64,000 bases of DNA from contig JAFAQY010000018.1 in NCBI GenBank assembly GCA_019261985.1, positions 85,591 to 149,590 on the forward strand, given 5' to 3'. The translations under genes were made by a program, and so were the position numbers. The notes under the pieces are model-generated. The model did not search any database, was not told where the DNA came from, and saw nothing but the letters and a program-made list of their open reading frames with translations. The stretch is from Bryobacterales bacterium (lineage in GTDB: Bacteria > Acidobacteriota > Terriglobia > Bryobacterales > Bryobacteraceae). Shown one piece after another: positions 10,420 through 61,196 of this stretch; within the stretch, counting starts at the first letter, position 1, and each line of letters opens with the position of its first letter.

Positions 10420-11115
10420 TTAATGATGAAGCTCGCGTGAATTGAGATCCGCCAATTCACGAAGGGCCAGGCGGCCGGTGTAGATCGCCATACCCAGCGC
10501 CGCGTGGACGCCGATAGCATCAAGCTCGCGGATTTCTTCCAGCGTCGTGATGCCGCCCGCCGCCGTAATCTCGCGATCTGTTGCGGCACGAAGGCGGCGG
10601 AACCACGCCATATCGGTTCCTTGCATCATGCCCTCTTTGTCGACGTAGGTGCAGAGGAATCCCGCGCAGAATGGCTCCATGCGGCTGATCACTTCCTCGG
10701 CGGTGAACGGAGTCGCCTCGCGCCAGCCCTTCACCACGATCTTGCCTTCTTTCGAATCCAAAGCGACGATAACGCGCTCGGGCTCGACCGCGGCCGCAAT
10801 CTTCGCGAGCTCCGGCGTGAAAGCGGCCGTTCCCACGATCACCCGGTATGCGCCCTGCTCGACCAATCGCTTGGCGCGATCGGCGTTCCGTACTCCTCCG
10901 CCCACTCGGCAGCGCGCCCGCGACGCAAGGAATTCGACCAGTGCCGAATTTTCGCCGTTGCCCATGGCCGCGTTGAGATCGATCGCTTGGATCTCCGGAA
11001 ATGCCACGAAGCGCTGCAGCATTTCCAATGGGCTGTCGCCCTCCAGAGCCTTCCTGCTGCCCTGAACGAGTTGCACTACTTTCCCGTCCATCAGATCGAT
11101 GCAGGGAATGATCAT
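10420..11115 (-). CDS. hisA: phosphoribosylformimino-5-aminoimidazole carboxamide ribotide isomerase
   Basis: [27 protein letters not shown]-barrel repeats, his operon context. Confidence 0.93.
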
Positions 11116-11864
11116 ACGCGCACGGGGACGTGCTCCCCAGCCAGGTACTGCTTCAAATCTCCCACTGTGTAGGCGCCGTAATGGAAAACCGATGCGGCCA
11201 GCGCGGCGTCGGCATGCTGGAGAACTTCAGCGAAATCCCGCGGCTTCCCCGCCCCGCCGGAAGCGATTACAGGAATGGAGGTCGCGTTGCGCACGGCGCG
11301 GGTCAGCGCGCAATCGAAGCCCGTTTGCACGCCATCCGTGTCCATGGATGTGAGCAGGATTTCACCCGCCCCCAGCTCCTGGCCACGACGCGCCCACTCG
11401 ACGGCATCGATGCCCTCGTCATGGCGCCCGCCGCGCGTGTAGACGTTCCAGCCCGCCTCCGGCCTGCGGCGTGCGTCGATCGCAAGCACAACGGCTTGCG
11501 CGCCGAACTCGGCGCTCATCTCAGAGATTAGTTCCGGCCGGTGGACCGCGGCGGTATTAACGCTGACCTTATCGGCGCCGGCATGCAGGATGCGGCGGGC
11601 GTCTTCCACGGATCGAATGCCTCCGCCTACCGTCAGCGGAATAAATATTTCCCGGGCCGTTCGCGCAACCACATCCACCATGGTGTCGCGACCGTCGCTT
11701 GAGGCCGTGATGTCCAGAAAAACGACCTCGTCGGCGCCTTGCTCGTTGTAGCGGGCCGCGAGCTCCACCGGGTCCCCGGCGTCCCGCAAGTTAACGAAAT
11801 TTACACCTTTGACCACGCGGCCGCCGGTGACATCCAGGCAGGGAATGATGCGCTTGGCTAGCAT
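11112..11864 (-). CDS. hisF: imidazole glycerol phosphate synthase cyclase subunit
   Basis: [36 protein letters not shown]; start at 11864 is shorter than the ORF track. Confidence 0.95.
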
Positions 11865-12469
11865 GCTTCGATGAAATTCTTGACCACAGCTAAACCCGAT
11901 GGTCCGGATTTTTCGGGATGAAACTGGACGCCGTATACATTCGCCTGCTCCAGCACAGCCGTGAAGGGAACGATGTAATCGCAAACCGCCGCGGTCGCCG
12001 CCACAATCGGGCAATAATAACTGTTCGCGAAATAGAAGTACTTCGCGCACGACGAAACCCGATCGTCTGTGCCGCGTAGCAGACGCGTTTCGCGGCAAGG
12101 CCGCACTTCATCCCAACCCATGTGCGGAATGCGCAGATCGCCCCGAAACCGCTTGACCTCCCCGGCATATATCCCGAGGCCGCGTTCTGCCGGAGCTTCC
12201 TCGCTAGACGTGAACAGCGCCTGAAGCCCCAGGCAAATGCCCATGAAGGGCACGCCCGCTTGAATCCGCTCCACCAGCGCGTCGCGCACACGGAGCTCAT
12301 CCAGCGCGCGCATCATTTGCCCGAAATGGCCGACGCCGGGAAGAATGATCTTTGTCGCGCCGCGCAGCCCGCCGGCATTGCGAATCAACTCGTATGGCGC
12401 GCCCAGCGCTCCCAGCGTGTTCTTTACGGATTGCAGGTTGCCCGCTCCATAATCGAAGATCGAGATCAT
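11858..12469 (-). CDS. hisH: imidazole glycerol phosphate synthase glutamine amidotransferase subunit
   Basis: [39 protein letters not shown] nucleophile, [10 protein letters not shown]. Confidence 0.95.
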
Positions 12470-13053
12470 AACAGGCCCTTTGTGGACGGAAGTTGCTCCT
12501 TCAAACGCGCGTCTTTTGAGCACGCATACCGCATCGCGCGCGCAAAACATTTGAATACCGCCTCAAGTTTATGGTGGGTGGACCGGCCGTACAGAACTTT
12601 CGCGTGAAGGTTCGCTCCGACGTGATTCACGAAACCGCCGAAGAAATCTTCGACGAGCTCGGTTTGCAGATCGCCGACCAGGCGCGTTCTGACCAGGTCT
12701 TTGTAAACCAGCGCCGGGCGGCCACCCAGATCCACCGCCACCACCGCTAAAGTTTCATCCATCGGCAATACGAAATATCCCGCGCGGTTGATGCCGCGCC
12801 GGTCCGCCAGCGCCTTTGAAAAAAGCTGCCCAAGCACGATGCCCGTGTCTTCTACCGTGTGATGCTGATCGACATCCAGGTCGCCTTTGGCTTGGAGCAT
12901 CAAATCGAAACCTCCGTGTTTCGAAAAAAGCTCCAGCATGTGATCGAAAAAACGGATGCCGGTCGAAATTTGATATTTCCCCCCGCCTTCGATGCCCAGC
13001 GCGCCCCGGATCTGCGTCTCCTTCGTATTGCGTTCAATAGACGCGCGCCTCAC
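12466..13053 (-). CDS. hisB: imidazoleglycerol-phosphate dehydratase
   Basis: [34 protein letters not shown]. Confidence 0.95.
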
Positions 13054-13721
13054 AACACACCTTCAATCTGATTTACGTTTTCTATAATCGCGACGGCGTT
13101 CTCTTGTTCAAAAAGCCGCTTCAATTCCTCGCGACGTGAGTGAGCTTCCGCCAATACACCAATGAAAGGCACTCCCGCCGCGCCGGCCGAGCGCGCGTCG
13201 TCGATCGTGTCGCCCACGAACAATAGCTTCCTTCCGGGCTTCATACGCTGGATGGCGAGGAGACCATCCGGAGCGGGTTTTCCGCGGACAACGTGATCGG
13301 CGCAGATGATCGGATCAAAGCGCAACTCCGGCGCAAAACGATTCAAGGTTATGTCCAACTCGTAACGCAGGCGGCCGGTGAACACGGCGAGACCGGATTT
13401 CCCGGATAGACGTTCAAGCAGTCCGGCCTGAGGAATCCAGCTTTCCCTGCGAATCAAACCGTCGCCATTGGTGCCGAGGAAGATCCGGTTGAAATAATCC
13501 ACCACGGTCCCATAGTCGACTTCGGTTCCAAGATCGGCACAGATTCTTTGGGATAAGGCCCAGTCGTTATTCCATCCTCCTGCGTTCTTGTATTTCTGCA
13601 CCAGTTCGCGCTCCACGCGCTGACCGGTGAAATACTCTACCGTCTGAACTATTGCCTGCCTATAGGACTCCGTCACTTCCGCGAGCACGCCGTCCATGTC
13701 GAAGACGATTATCGATTCCAC
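13050..13721 (-). CDS. HAD-family phosphatase embedded in the his operon
   Basis: [22 protein letters not shown] (DxDGV motif), [23 protein letters not shown]; between hisC and hisB. Confidence 0.8.
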
Positions 13722-14740
13722 AGCTTCTCCAGTTCGGTCAAGAAAAGCTGCGCCTGCTGGCGCGTTCCCGCCGTTACGCGGACACAACCGGGGACTTCAT
13801 AGCTGCGATCGCGGACCAGCACGCCGCGCTCGCGTAGGGTGTCACGGATTTCGATGGAACGATCCGCCGCTTGAAACAGGACGAAGTTGGCGCGGCTCGG
13901 ATAATATCGAATTCCGAGGCGATCGAATCCGTCGCACAACAGCGCGCGCGCTTCCAAAGCTTCCGCGACATATTGCGTGATGTAATCCTGATCGCGAATT
14001 GCAGCCCGCGCGGCCAGCGCCGCCAGTGAATTCACGCTGTAGGGCGATTGTGCCTTCTTAAGCCATTGCACGTTCTCCGAGGATGAAAACAAGCAGCCGC
14101 ATCGCATTGCGGCCATTCCATAAACCTTCGAAAAGGTGCGGCTGACGAAAAGATTCGGATAAGCCCGGATGCATGGCAGAACCGTAACACCCGAGAACTC
14201 GAAATAAGCTTCGTCGATCAGGACGACTGCCCCTGGCGCAGCTTCGAGAATTCGGCGAACGTCTTCGGCATCGATACCCGTGCCGGTCGGATTGTTTGGA
14301 TTTGCGACGAGAATCGCCCGCGTCGACGGACTTATTGCCGTGAGAATTTCCTCTAGCGGAAACGCGAGCGTTTCACGCCGGAACTCGATTTCCCGAACCG
14401 CTGCGCCGGCTAGATCCGCATAGAACCGGTACATCGCATACGACGGTTTGAGCACGATGACATCGCCACCGTCATCGATATATGTATTCACGAGCAATTG
14501 AATCGCTTCATCGGTGCCGTTGGTCAGCGTAAACTCGCGTTTCGAGATCCCAAAGAAGCCGGCGAGTTCCTCAACCGCTTCTACGTACTCCGGGTAGATC
14601 GATAGCCTGTCGGCGGTGAGCCTCTCCCGCAGAAATTCGATAACCGCCGGCGAGCAGCCGACCGTGTTTTCGTTGAAATCGAGCCGCAGCTTACCCTCGC
14701 GCCCGGCGCTAGGAGGAGAATAAGGAGCCATCCGGCGCAC
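13709..14740 (-). CDS. hisC: histidinol-phosphate aminotransferase
   Basis: LRLDFNENTVGCSPAVIEFL, SRTFSKVYGMAAMRCG; ORF extends to 14812 through a palindromic repeat, so the true start is uncertain (GTG 14740 or ATG 14731). Confidence 0.9.
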   Translation of the reverse strand: MRRMAPYSPPSAGREGKLRLDFNENTVGCSPAVIEFLRERLTADRLSIYPEYVEAVEELAGFFGISKREFTLTNGTDEAIQLLVNTYIDDGGDVIVLKPSYAMYRFYADLAGAAVREIEFRRETLAFPLEEILTAISPSTRAILVANPNNPTGTGIDAEDVRRILEAAPGAVVLIDEAYFEFSGVTVLPCIRAYPNLFVSRTFSKVYGMAAMRCGCLFSSSENVQWLKKAQSPYSVNSLAALAARAAIRDQDYITQYVAEALEARALLCDGFDRLGIRYYPSRANFVLFQAADRSIEIRDTLRERGVLVRDRSYEVPGCVRVTAGTRQQAQLFLTELEKLWNR

Positions 14741-14752
14741 AGCTTCACGCGG

Positions 14753-14810
14753 AGTAGGACAAGCTTTAGCTTGTCCCTCACAGCCAGACAAGCTGAAGCT
14801 TGTCTTACAC
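14753..14810. repeat. paired palindromic repeat GGACAAGCTTTAGCTTGTCC / AGACAAGCTGAAGCTTGTCTTAC
   Basis: Direct reading; related to the copy at 34675-34702. Confidence 0.9.
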
Positions 14811-14816
14811 ATTTCT

Positions 14817-15177
14817 CACCTCAATCGAACGCGCATGCGCCTCCAACCCCGGATGTGGGGCAGGATGCCATCCTGCGCGCCGGTTGCCAACCGGCGCTGG
14901 TCGGTCTTCGTCTAAAACTCGCGTCGGCGACGCGCCGCCGCGAGTGAGCAACCTAACCCACAATCCCCTACTCACTCCTCACCTCACCAGAAGGCGCATG
15001 CGCCTCCAAGCCACGCGCATGCGCCTCCAAGCCTTCCGCTCTCGCCGGGCATGTGGGGCAGGATGCCATCCTGCGCGCCGGTTGCCAACCGGCGCTGGCC
15101 GGTCTTCGTCTAAAACTCGCGTCGGCGACGCGCCGCTGCAGGTGAGCACCCTAACCCACAATCCCCTACTCACTCCT
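14817..15177. repeat. two tandem units (163 and 198 bp), each with a hisD-3'-end copy plus palindromes CAGGATGCCATCCTG and GCCGGTTGCCAACCGGC
   Basis: cacctca + (c)gcatgcgcctccaa at 14817, 14980 and 15178; ATGTGGGGCAGGATGCCATCC...GACGCGCCG at 14853 and 15051 (198-bp offset). Confidence 0.92.
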
Positions 15178-16392
15178 CACCTCAACCGAACGCGCATGCG
15201 CCTCCAAGCCTTCAGCTCTCGCCAGAGTCGTAACCGAAGCACGCAGTCCCGCCAGCGCCCGCGGCTGCAATTCCTGCACCGAAATCACCTTTACAAAATC
15301 GGCCGAAGATAATCCTCCCCGTAGCCGCGCCGCCCCTGCGGTCGGCAGCACGTGATTCGGACCGGAAGCGTAATCTCCGGCAGCCTCCGGGCTCATTGGC
15401 CCCAAAAACACCGACCCCGCATTTTGAACCGAGTCCAGGAGAGACGCGTCATGCAGAGCCAAGTGTTCCGGGGCAAGCGCGTTCGAAAACTCCATGGCGC
15501 GCTCAAGGTCATCGACGATGACGATCGCGCCGTTGTTTTCAATAGACGGACGCGCCACCGCCGCCGTCGGCAGCGTTCCGAGTTGCCGTTCCAATTCCTC
15601 GGCGACTTCGCCGGCGAGCGGACGCGATGTGGTCAGTAGGATCGCCGAAGCATCCACGTCATGCTCGGCCTGCGCCAGCATGTCAGCGGCGATCCATTTC
15701 GGATTGCCCTCGGCGGCAATAATTACGATTTCGGTCGGTCCGGCGACAAAATCGATCCCGGTCTCGCCCGCGATCAGCTTCTTCGCCGCCGCGACATAGA
15801 TATTTCCTGGCCCGACGATCCGGTCCACCCGAGGCACGGTTTCGGTCCCGAACGCAAGCGCCGCGATGGCCTGCGCGCCGCCCATTCGGAAAAAATGCGT
15901 CACACCGAGCCACTTCGCTAAGCCCAGAATCTCGCGGCTCGGGCGAGGGCAAGCCACGCAGGTTGTCTTCACCCCCGCAACCTCCGCCGGGATGATGTTC
16001 ATCAAAAGCGTCGACGGCAGCGGATACCGCCCCGCCGGAGTGTAAGCGCCCATGGATTCCAGAGGCCGTACGATTTGCCCCAGCCGCCGGCCATCCGGAT
16101 AATCTACAAACCGCTCTTCCGGCAATTGCAAACGAGCATATTCGCGGATGTTTTCCGCCGCTTGACAAACCGCTCGCTCAAAGGCGGGATCAAGGCCGCC
16201 GCCCACAGGCTCTTCCCGAACGCTACGGCCCTGAAAGCCGTCGAACTGACGAGCATATTCGAGCAAAGCCGCGTCGCCACGCCGCCGCACGTCGTCGAGA
16301 ATCGGCGCCACGACCCGCTCGGCTTCTTCCAGGCGCTGAGCCTTGCGGGCAAGCAGCGGCGCAGCATCCTTGTGATCTAGTATCCGAATCAT
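15166..16392 (-). CDS. hisD: histidinol dehydrogenase
   Basis: VGPGNIYVAAAKKLIAGETGIDFVAGPTEIVIIA, AQAEHDVDASAILLT. Confidence 0.95.
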   Translation of the reverse strand: MIRILDHKDAAPLLARKAQRLEEAERVVAPILDDVRRRGDAALLEYARQFDGFQGRSVREEPVGGGLDPAFERAVCQAAENIREYARLQLPEERFVDYPDGRRLGQIVRPLESMGAYTPAGRYPLPSTLLMNIIPAEVAGVKTTCVACPRPSREILGLAKWLGVTHFFRMGGAQAIAALAFGTETVPRVDRIVGPGNIYVAAAKKLIAGETGIDFVAGPTEIVIIAAEGNPKWIAADMLAQAEHDVDASAILLTTSRPLAGEVAEELERQLGTLPTAAVARPSIENNGAIVIVDDLERAMEFSNALAPEHLALHDASLLDSVQNAGSVFLGPMSPEAAGDYASGPNHVLPTAGAARLRGGLSSADFVKVISVQELQPRALAGLRASVTTLARAEGLEAHARSVEVRSE

Positions 16393-16439
16393 TTTGAATA
16401 GTTCACGTGCAGGACACCTCCGCTAGCAACTGAAAAGCG

Positions 16440-16535
16440 GGGCAGGCTTCAGCCTGCGGCGAGGCTTCAGCCCGCCATGCCTGATTGGCGGACTCAAGTC
16501 CGCCGCAGGCTGAAGCCCGGCTGAAGCCTGCCCCA
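16440..16535. repeat. palindromic repeat array between hisG and hisD
   Basis: ggggcaggcttcagcctgcggc...gccgcaggctgaagcccggctgaagcctgcccc. Confidence 0.88.
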
Positions 16536-16666
16536 CTTTCATGCTCTTTGTGCACCGCAGCCGCATGCCCACTCAAAGCCGCGGATCTACGCATTCGGCA
16601 ATGAGGATGCGGGTATAATGCGGCAAAATTTCAAAATAAGGCAGATCTTCGTGCTCATGCAAATCA

Positions 16667-17536
16667 TTACATTACGATCTTGTTAAGCGGATACTCCACA
16701 ATCCCCTGCGCCCCCGCCTCCTTCAATCGCGGAATAATCGACCGCACGGTAGACTCATCCAGGATCGTGTTCACCGCCAGCCAGTTTCCGTCGCTCAGGG
16801 GAGAAATGGTCGGCTTTTTCAATGCGGGCAACACTGCCAGAACCGCCTCGAGCTGTGGCTTCTCTACGTTCAGCATTAACCCAACCTTGCCGAGCGCATT
16901 GATCGCGCCCTCAAGCAACATGGTGATGTCTTCCAGTTTGCGCCGCTTCCACGCGTCCCGCCACGACTCGACGTTGGCGATCAATTGCGTGTTGGATTCC
17001 AGAACCGTCTCGACGATTCGCAGCTTGTTCGCGCGCAGCGAAGACCCGGTCTCTGTCACTTCGACAATGGCATCGGCCAGCACGGGAGGCTTGACTTCGG
17101 TTGCTCCCCAACTGAATTCGACTTTCGCATTCACTCCATTCGACGCCAGATACCGGCGTGTCGCCGAAACCAGTTCCGTCGCGATCACCTTTCCTTCCAG
17201 ATCCCTTACGGATTGAAACCGCGATGCCTCCGGAACCGCAAGCACCCAACGCACTTTGCCGAAGCTCTGCTTGGCATAGATGAGGTCAGCGACGGTTTGA
17301 ACCCTCGCCTCGCTCTCCTCAACCCAATCGCGGCCCGTTAAGCCGGCGTCCAGGACGCCATCTTCCACATATCGCGCCATCTCTTGCGCGCGAATCAGCA
17401 TGCACTCGATCTCAGGATCGTCGATGCCGGGGAAATAGGAGCGGCTGGAAATGCTTATCTGAAACCCCGCGCGGCGGAAGAGATCGACGGTGGCATTTTC
17501 GAGGCTGCCCTTGGGAATGCCCAGTTTAAGCTTCAT
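16667..17536 (-). CDS. hisG: ATP phosphoribosyltransferase
   Basis: [46 protein letters not shown]-like motif. Confidence 0.95.
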
Positions 17537-17539
17537 CGC

Positions 17540-17914
17540 TTAATTTCCGTAAACCGCCGCGGGATCGTATGCGCGCGGTTCATTCGTCTTCCACTCGCCC
17601 TCATCGTACTTGCGGAAGAAACAGCTTTGATAGCCTTCGTGGCACACGCCCGGACCGATCGCGTCCACCTTTAACAAAACCGCGTCGCTATCGCAATCCG
17701 TTGCGATCTCTTTCACCATCAGCTTGTGCCCGGACGTCTCGCCCTTCAGCCACAGCTTGTTTCGCGAGCGGCTGTAAAATACCGCGCATCCGCTTTCAAG
17801 CGTCTTTCGAAAGGCTTCCTCATTCATGAAGCCGACCATAAGCACCCGGCCGGAGGAGGCATCTTGAATCACCGCGGGCAACAATCCATCGAGTTTGCTG
17901 AAATCCAGTTGCAT
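17540..17914 (-). CDS. hisI: phosphoribosyl-AMP cyclohydrolase
   Basis: QDASSGRVLMVGFMNEEAFRKTLESGCAVFYSRSRNKLWLKGETSGH; CDSDAVLLKVDAIGPGVCHEGYQSCFFR. Confidence 0.95.
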   Translation of the reverse strand: MQLDFSKLDGLLPAVIQDASSGRVLMVGFMNEEAFRKTLESGCAVFYSRSRNKLWLKGETSGHKLMVKEIATDCDSDAVLLKVDAIGPGVCHEGYQSCFFRKYDEGEWKTNEPRAYDPAAVYGN

Positions 17915-17924
17915 AATTTCCCAA

Positions 17925-17953
17925 TAAAAAAGCCCACCGTTTCCGGCGGGCTC
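17925..17953 (-). terminator. his attenuator terminator
   Basis: Minus strand GAGCCCGCCG GAAA CGGTGGGC TTTTTT; 8-bp stem with one G-T pair followed by T6, 11 nt before the hisI start. Confidence 0.85.
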
Positions 17954-17978
17954 GCTTTCGTCTATTCCGGTTTGGCAG

Positions 17979-18047
17979 TTAGCCGTGAGCCCGTCGCGTG
18001 AAGTGCCCGTGATGGGGATGATGGCGATGGGTGCTCGCGGCGAACAT
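17979..18047 (-). CDS. hisL: histidine operon leader peptide MFAASTHRHHPHHGHFTRRAHG (7 His of 22 aa)
   Basis: Codon-by-codon reading of the minus strand from ATG 18047 to TAA 17979; followed by the antiterminator arm and terminator before hisI. Confidence 0.85.
   Translation of the reverse strand: MFAASTHRHHPHHGHFTRRAHG
17987..17996 (-). promoter_or_regulatory. candidate antiterminator arm pairing with the terminator 5' arm (17944-17953)
   Basis: CGACGGGCTC vs GAGCCCGCCG: 9 of 10 positions complementary; lies in the last codons of hisL. Confidence 0.7.
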
Positions 18048-18055
18048 GAATTTAA

Positions 18056-18061
18056 ACTATA
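18056..18061 (-). promoter_or_regulatory. -10-like element TATAGT 8 nt before the hisL ATG
   Basis: Direct reading; no clear Shine-Dalgarno between it and the ATG. Confidence 0.4.
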
Positions 18062-18091
18062 TCACACTTTCGGCATAGGCAAACAAAAAAT

Positions 18092-18892
18092 CTACACGAC
18101 ATTCGCCTTCAGCGGAGCGATCTCGCCCCATAGCCGGCGCAGAATATCCCGGCTGTATCGAAGATATTCCCGGTCCGGAGAAAACACCTCGAGAGTGATA
18201 GTGCCGTCGTACCCGCAGGTTTTCAATTCCCGTATAGCCGCTCGCACATCCACGTTTCCGCAGCCCAGGCCCAAGTGCAAATCTGCGCTCCCTCCGCGAT
18301 TGTCGTGCAGGTGCACATGGCGGACCCGGTCGCCGTAGGCGTTTAGAATCGGCTGCGTCATATTGTGAGGCACTAACAAATTTGCGTGGCCGATGTCCAG
18401 ATGCAGCCCCAGTTCCGGAATCGGATCCAGCAGCTCGCCGAGCTGCTGGGCGGTGTTGAACTCCCCGGGAAGATTCTCGATCATCAATCCCACGCCGCAT
18501 TTCCGCGCGGGTTCCATCAGCTCCGTGATGGAAACGATGTTGCGTTGCACAAAATAGCTGCGCGGGTGCATGGGCGTGTTGTGATCGGGGTGGAGATTCA
18601 TCCAGTGAGCCCCTACTTCGGCGAACACTTCCAGGCAAAGTTTCAGCTCCCCGAGCGCGGCTTCGCGAATACTTTCAAAGGCGCTCGCGAACGGCAAATA
18701 AAACGCCGTATGGCCCACCACCTTAAGTCCGTGTTTCTCGATTTCGTTCCGGAGTTGCGCCGGGTTCACTTTGCAGGCTGCCGCCGCGGGGGGCTCCAGT
18801 GTCAGGTCGATAAAATCCAACCCCATCTCGGCCATCCAGCGAATCTCGGAAATCACCTCCGCCGCCGGGTGATTCATCGCTCCTACGAGCAT
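18092..18892 (-). CDS. sugar phosphate isomerase/epimerase-like TIM barrel protein
   Basis: GLDFIDLTLEPP, MNLHPDHNTPMHP, GLMIENLPGEFNT, HLDIGHANL, RHVHLHDN. Confidence 0.8.
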   Translation of the reverse strand: MLVGAMNHPAAEVISEIRWMAEMGLDFIDLTLEPPAAAACKVNPAQLRNEIEKHGLKVVGHTAFYLPFASAFESIREAALGELKLCLEVFAEVGAHWMNLHPDHNTPMHPRSYFVQRNIVSITELMEPARKCGVGLMIENLPGEFNTAQQLGELLDPIPELGLHLDIGHANLLVPHNMTQPILNAYGDRVRHVHLHDNRGGSADLHLGLGCGNVDVRAAIRELKTCGYDGTITLEVFSPDREYLRYSRDILRRLWGEIAPLKANVV

Positions 18893-60960: not shown

Positions 60961-61037
<77 letters not shown>

Positions 61038-61119: not shown

Positions 61120-61196
61120 GCGCCCGTAGCTCAGTTGGATAGAGCGTCTGGCTACGAACCAGAAGGTCGGGTGTTCGAATCACTCCGGGCGCACCA
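61120..61196 (+). tRNA. tRNA-Arg(ACG)
   Basis: GCGCCCGTAGCTCAGTTGGATAGAGCGTCTGGCTACGAACCAGAAGGTCGGGTGTTCGAATCACTCCGGGCGCACCA. Confidence 0.96.

Follow-up and report, generated by a model that had tools for sequence, protein, structure and literature searches.

A predicted leader-peptide attenuator upstream of hisI-first histidine operons in Acidobacteriota

Why does a short, histidine-rich open reading frame lie directly upstream of a histidine biosynthesis operon? In the window analyzed here, i.e. a 64,000-nucleotide stretch of a Bryobacterales genome, such an ORF and a hairpin following it sit on the minus strand between a TIM-barrel gene (18892..18092) and hisI (17914..17540), as read directly from the sequence. 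The nearest relatives of this organism are Bryobacterales MAGs of the phylum Acidobacteriota. Based on the analyses reported here, we suggest with a probability of roughly 0.93 that a ribosome-mediated transcription attenuator controls the hisI-first his operon. The basis for this reading is in silico and consists of the ORF, three hairpins, the conservation and position of these elements, and folding in the presence of ribosome footprints. The genes and the leader are arranged as follows:

10420..17536, minus strand: remaining his operon (hisG, hisD, hisC, HAD hydrolase, hisB, hisH, hisF, hisA)
17540..17914, minus strand: hisI, phosphoribosyl-AMP cyclohydrolase, first gene of the putatively regulated operon (PF01502, E 3.7e-32), with its ATG at 17914
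17979..18047, minus strand: leader peptide ORF, MFAASTHRHHPHHGHFTRRAHG and a stop codon, read directly; of 147 distinct regions upstream of hisI, 125 have a His-rich ORF
18003..18029, minus strand: proposed regulatory His codons 7-15 (six His), read directly; His runs are kept in relatives

Pfam supports the assignment of hisI, hisG, hisD, hisC (as an aminotransferase), the HAD hydrolase and hisB, while hisH, hisF and hisA are identified from their translations only. The HAD-family hydrolase gene found by Pfam between hisC and hisB (window positions 13050-13787, minus strand) might provide the histidinol-phosphate phosphatase step. Elsewhere in the window, two divergent tRNA genes lie approximately 80 nt apart (60964-61037, minus strand; 61120-61193, plus strand).

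The original prediction described a 22-codon ORF with seven His codons, and direct reading bears this out: the ORF extends from an ATG to a TAA at 17981..17979, and six of the seven His residues fall in codons 7-15. Among the 705 short ORFs in the window, this leader is the only one with at least six His; dinucleotide shuffles give an expectation of 0.15 ORFs with at least six His and of 0.025 at a His density of at least 25%.

The ORF and the sequence downstream of it contain four segments with the potential to form mutually exclusive hairpins:

18033..18045, minus strand: segment 1, N-terminal codons of the leader, forms the 1:2 hairpin with segment 2 (MFE and partition folding)
17987..17997, minus strand: segment 2, GCGACGGGCTC, codons for RRA, 5' arm of the antiterminator
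17944..17953, minus strand: segment 3, GAGCCCGCCG, 5' arm of the terminator and 3' arm of the antiterminator
17930..17939, minus strand: segment 4, CGGTGGGCTT, 3' arm of the terminator
17926..17931, minus strand: U tract (T6) of the predicted intrinsic terminator, read directly; kept in the alignment

The terminator stem spans 17953..17930 with the T6 at 17931..17926, followed by 11 nt to hisI. The hairpin had been placed at 17925-17951; its GC stem, its T6 and its distance of 11 nt to hisI are as described, and only the 5' side was drawn 2 nt too short, which is trivial. The claimed pairing of CGACGGGCTC (17996..17987) with segment 3 (17953..17944) at 9 of 10 positions is also correct, the exception being one A.C mismatch. 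Segment 1 had been missed and is newly recognized here, completing the classical design. A general terminator scan of the region returned this site as its top match; because its total of 14 sites, with 10.8 expected, is no more than expected, we relied on comparison instead.

To this end, loci were gathered by similarity to HisI or HisG and never by the leader; for the main leader counts, only loci gathered through HisI were used. Close relatives, nearly all of them Bryobacterales, have a His-rich leader before hisI at 86 of 91 distinct loci. The figure is 15 of 27 for members of the order and class that are more distantly related, and 24 of 29 for loci sampled across the rest of the class and phylum; examples of the peptides are MFVARHHRHHHHHHFGAIRAHA, MTLVSVARHHHHIHAILRRALS and MRSLNIHHGHHHHHHAESVLAAVSGVAK. 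Such an ORF is found upstream of hisI in 76 of 79 loci, as opposed to 13 of 2900 (0.45%) other windows of the same loci. Among the 125 leaders, a scan found a simple hairpin with a T-rich tail after 107, and folding or reading of the other 18 reveals in several cases a clear hairpin with a bulge or a long loop. One locus of the sample, L055 (CALQCC020000041.1), is titled Bordetella parapertussis and carries hisI and leader DNA; its last 150 nt are identical to those of L016 from the window's genus, and the MAG title therefore looks wrong.

In an alignment of 44 loci, the order of elements is TATACT, about 8 nt, ATG, CCGTCGC (segment 1), the His codons, GCGACGGGC (segment 2, coding for RRA), the stop codon, GCCCGCCGC (segment 3) and CGGCGGGC-T6 (segment 4). 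RNAalifold recovered essentially the terminator alone from this alignment because competing helices cannot share one structure, and the helices were therefore counted separately. Helix 1:2, in the aligned core of which CCGTCGC pairs with GCGACGG, is paired in 84.8% of cells (24-58% with the partners slid by 1-3 columns), helix 2:3 in 76.5% (34-46%) and helix 3:4 in 91.4% (34-54%). The core of 2:3 is nearly invariant and, thus, uninformative, and the covariation is found in its flanks: the first flanking pair is U-A, G-C or C-G, with 10 double changes, and its outer neighbor is similar. Own 2:3 partners give -17.4 kcal/mol compared to -15.5 kcal/mol for swapped ones with none of 5000 permutations as good, and the leader region folds better than all of 200 shuffles (z -3.4), in tests that are not fully corrected for relatedness. 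Independently of the permutation test, a free-register analysis of 107 loci from the whole sample places the best partner of the terminator 5' arm in a sharp peak centered 15 nt before the end of the stop codon, with a mean of -15.3 kcal/mol against roughly -4 to -7 kcal/mol across most of the leader. Judged by comparison of sequences, all three classical attenuator hairpins, i.e. 1:2, the 2:3 antiterminator and the 3:4 terminator, are conserved. The comparison of homologous upstream regions for conserved His codons and for both alternative pairings had been set as a test beforehand, and both were found.

From these elements, we infer the transcription start, translation of the leader, termination and a response to histidine. 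In our model, transcription would begin at, or a few bases from, the leader AUG. When charged tRNA-His is plentiful, the ribosome would reach the UAA and cover segment 2; with segment 2 covered, 3:4 would therefore form the proposed intrinsic terminator 11 nt before hisI. When charged tRNA-His is scarce, the ribosome would stall at His codons 7-13 and cover segment 1, leaving segment 2 free to capture segment 3 while segment 4 has yet to be transcribed, and RNA polymerase would proceed into the his genes. If the leader is not translated at all, 1:2 would form and the terminator would win again.

Folding with the ribosome footprint blocked yields the switch expected from the original prediction, according to which stalling frees segment 2 for the antiterminator and reading to the stop masks it, favoring the terminator. 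With no ribosome, 1:2 forms at 0.84 and the terminator at 0.98. With the A site at His codon 7, 9, 10 or 12 and segment 4 unmade, the 2:3 antiterminator forms at 0.89; simulated stalls at codons 13 and 15 give 0.88 and 0.59, respectively. With the ribosome at the stop codon, segment 2 is masked and the terminator forms at 0.95. In the full-length RNA, the terminator prevails at equilibrium even if a ribosome is stalled, and the decision must therefore fall during transcription, i.e. it must be kinetic. Known attenuators likewise decide during transcription.

Is the element specific to this position? A covariance model built from 44 loci, with the window element among its training rows, scores this element at 99 bits. 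In the own genome, the only strong match lies directly before hisI, with no second match better than E 0.5, and genome-wide searches of relatives, including genomes outside the training set, gave strong full-length matches adjoining hisI. No known leader, T-box or riboswitch was found by scanning against Rfam; specifically, RF00514 (His_leader) was not matched at its gathering score nor among matches up to E 10, and the T-box model (RF00230) had no match upstream of hisI.

Three other explanations have to be weighed against attenuation. The His-rich ORF could encode a small functional protein, e.g. a metal-binding peptide, that is a chance neighbor of hisI and has its own ordinary terminator. 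His-rich peptides can bind metals, and a conserved ORF with a terminator would look alike; but the sequence and length of the peptide vary widely while the His runs and the RNA segments are retained, substitutions favor third codon positions only mildly (44 vs 27 and 27), the position at which the 3' codons of the leader pair with the terminator arm is fixed, and the leader always adjoins a his gene. We consider this explanation very improbable. The same low standing applies to the idea that the leader controls translation of hisI rather than transcription, with the hairpin sequestering the hisI start: the conserved U tract that follows the hairpin in nearly all loci is typical of an intrinsic terminator, and the hairpin excludes the hisI start region, even if no more than 11 nt separate it from hisI and attenuators that act on translation have been described (PMC9413887).

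A GC-rich stretch could also hold a His-rich frame and a fortuitous complementarity by chance, and pairing at 9 of 10 positions is by itself unremarkable in GC-rich sequence. The enrichment of the leader upstream of hisI over other windows of the same loci, the permutation and slid-partner controls, and the covariance-model match all speak against this, making it the least credible of the three; a chance origin of the leader is already refuted by the comparative data.

How would the leader transcript start? The consensus promoter scan missed the promoter because the consensus -35 is weak in this genome, and it was found by position-specific analysis across loci:

18056..18064, minus strand: TGA-TATAGT, predicted extended -10 promoter element, with 8 nt between its end and the leader AUG

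Of 125 loci, 96 have a -10-like hexamer, mostly TATACT, whose end lies 7-11 nt upstream of the leader AUG, compared to 2 of 125 in an offset control; 80 of those 96 loci have a TG at the extended position. The usual sigma-70 spacing would place the transcript start a few bases from the AUG at most, and Shine-Dalgarno-like matches ahead of the AUG are weak. Based on this position, the spacing and the weak Shine-Dalgarno matches, we predict a leader ORF that is leaderless or nearly so. If true, the first transcribed codon would be the start codon, the ribosome would have to load on the extreme 5' end of the nascent RNA and would be tied to RNA polymerase from the first bases, and termination would yield a small leaderless mRNA or sRNA. 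The predicted start would also offer a natural system for studying how ribosomes manage to load onto an emerging 5' end quickly enough to control RNA polymerase.

The leader is missing upstream of hisI in some genomes of the same order, mostly of genus g17 (L116, L120-L122, L124-L127, L130, L132 and L136). A search near the short-form hisG of order members without the leader at hisI gave no convincing one, and g17 lacks it at both places. The hisG of these same-order genomes is only distantly similar, and the leader seems to have been lost with rearrangement of the his genes. At three loci of close relatives (L027, L082, L098), a terminator-like hairpin is kept and the leader is at most decayed. 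Upstream of hisG, which lies 3' of hisI in the operons considered here, there are almost no His-rich leaders. In several other families of the phylum (L199, L203-L205 and L207-L210), His-rich short ORFs such as MNFSCRQHHHHCHPFRGVR are found upstream of hisG. These ORFs suggest that the putative leader there accompanies whichever gene comes first in the operon.

Leaders for other amino acids were also sought. Upstream of ilvB, in the own genome (L234, G000:C133) as well as in L235-L238, L240, L242 and L243, there is a conserved leader ORF rich in Ile, Val and Leu that ends in VGVxGxA; it is followed by a hairpin with a T-rich tail, and GGCGGGG within the hairpin stem is complementary to the 3' end of the leader. 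We regard this as a probable ilv attenuator in the same genus. The regions preceding trpE and leuA were searched for leaders rich in Trp and Leu, respectively, and no conserved one was found. The phylum-wide spread, the conserved extended -10 box with the leaderless start that it predicts, and the probable ilv attenuator are new beyond the earlier reading. We give even odds to the joint reading in which a leaderless his attenuator occurs across much of the Acidobacteriota, is ancestral and was lost or moved with operon rearrangement, and is accompanied by an ilv attenuator in this genus.

The original prediction held that a his attenuator is apparently undescribed in Acidobacteriota; in agreement with this, targeted searches of the open-access PMC literature gave no earlier report for the phylum, which leaves room for an older paper in a subscription journal. 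A comparative study of his regulation from 2022 describes attenuators in Proteobacteria and three lineages of Firmicutes and leaves Acidobacteria unmentioned (PMC9413887). The element described here resembles enteric hisL (RF00514) in having a His-codon-rich leader peptide and mutually exclusive terminator and antiterminator hairpins before a his biosynthetic operon. Unlike hisL, it precedes hisI rather than hisG, occurs in a different phylum, has no match to the Rfam model, and is short, with an ORF that contains both segment 1 and segment 2 and a 5' UTR that is predicted to be absent. It shares with the his attenuators of Firmicutes (PMC9413887; hisS/hisZ leaders, PMC2965389) a His-rich leader peptide and a terminator and antiterminator predicted by comparison; however, those are found in three narrow lineages and at other genes, while the element here spans much of another phylum. 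The transcript of trpL in Sinorhizobium meliloti begins with the ATG of the leader (PMC7298713), the start that is only predicted for the Acidobacteriota leader; by contrast, trpL responds to tryptophan, precedes trpE(G) and has an experimentally mapped start. The trp and ilvB leader attenuators of Actinobacteria, a high-GC phylum, were likewise predicted by comparison as a leader peptide with a terminator, and no his attenuator is among the elements shown in the part of that survey consulted (PMC1262725). The element belongs among the leader-peptide attenuators, and not to RF00514. Leader-peptide attenuation would then extend well beyond Proteobacteria, Actinobacteria and Firmicutes, with the his operon of an abundant soil phylum providing more than 100 distinct examples to work from.
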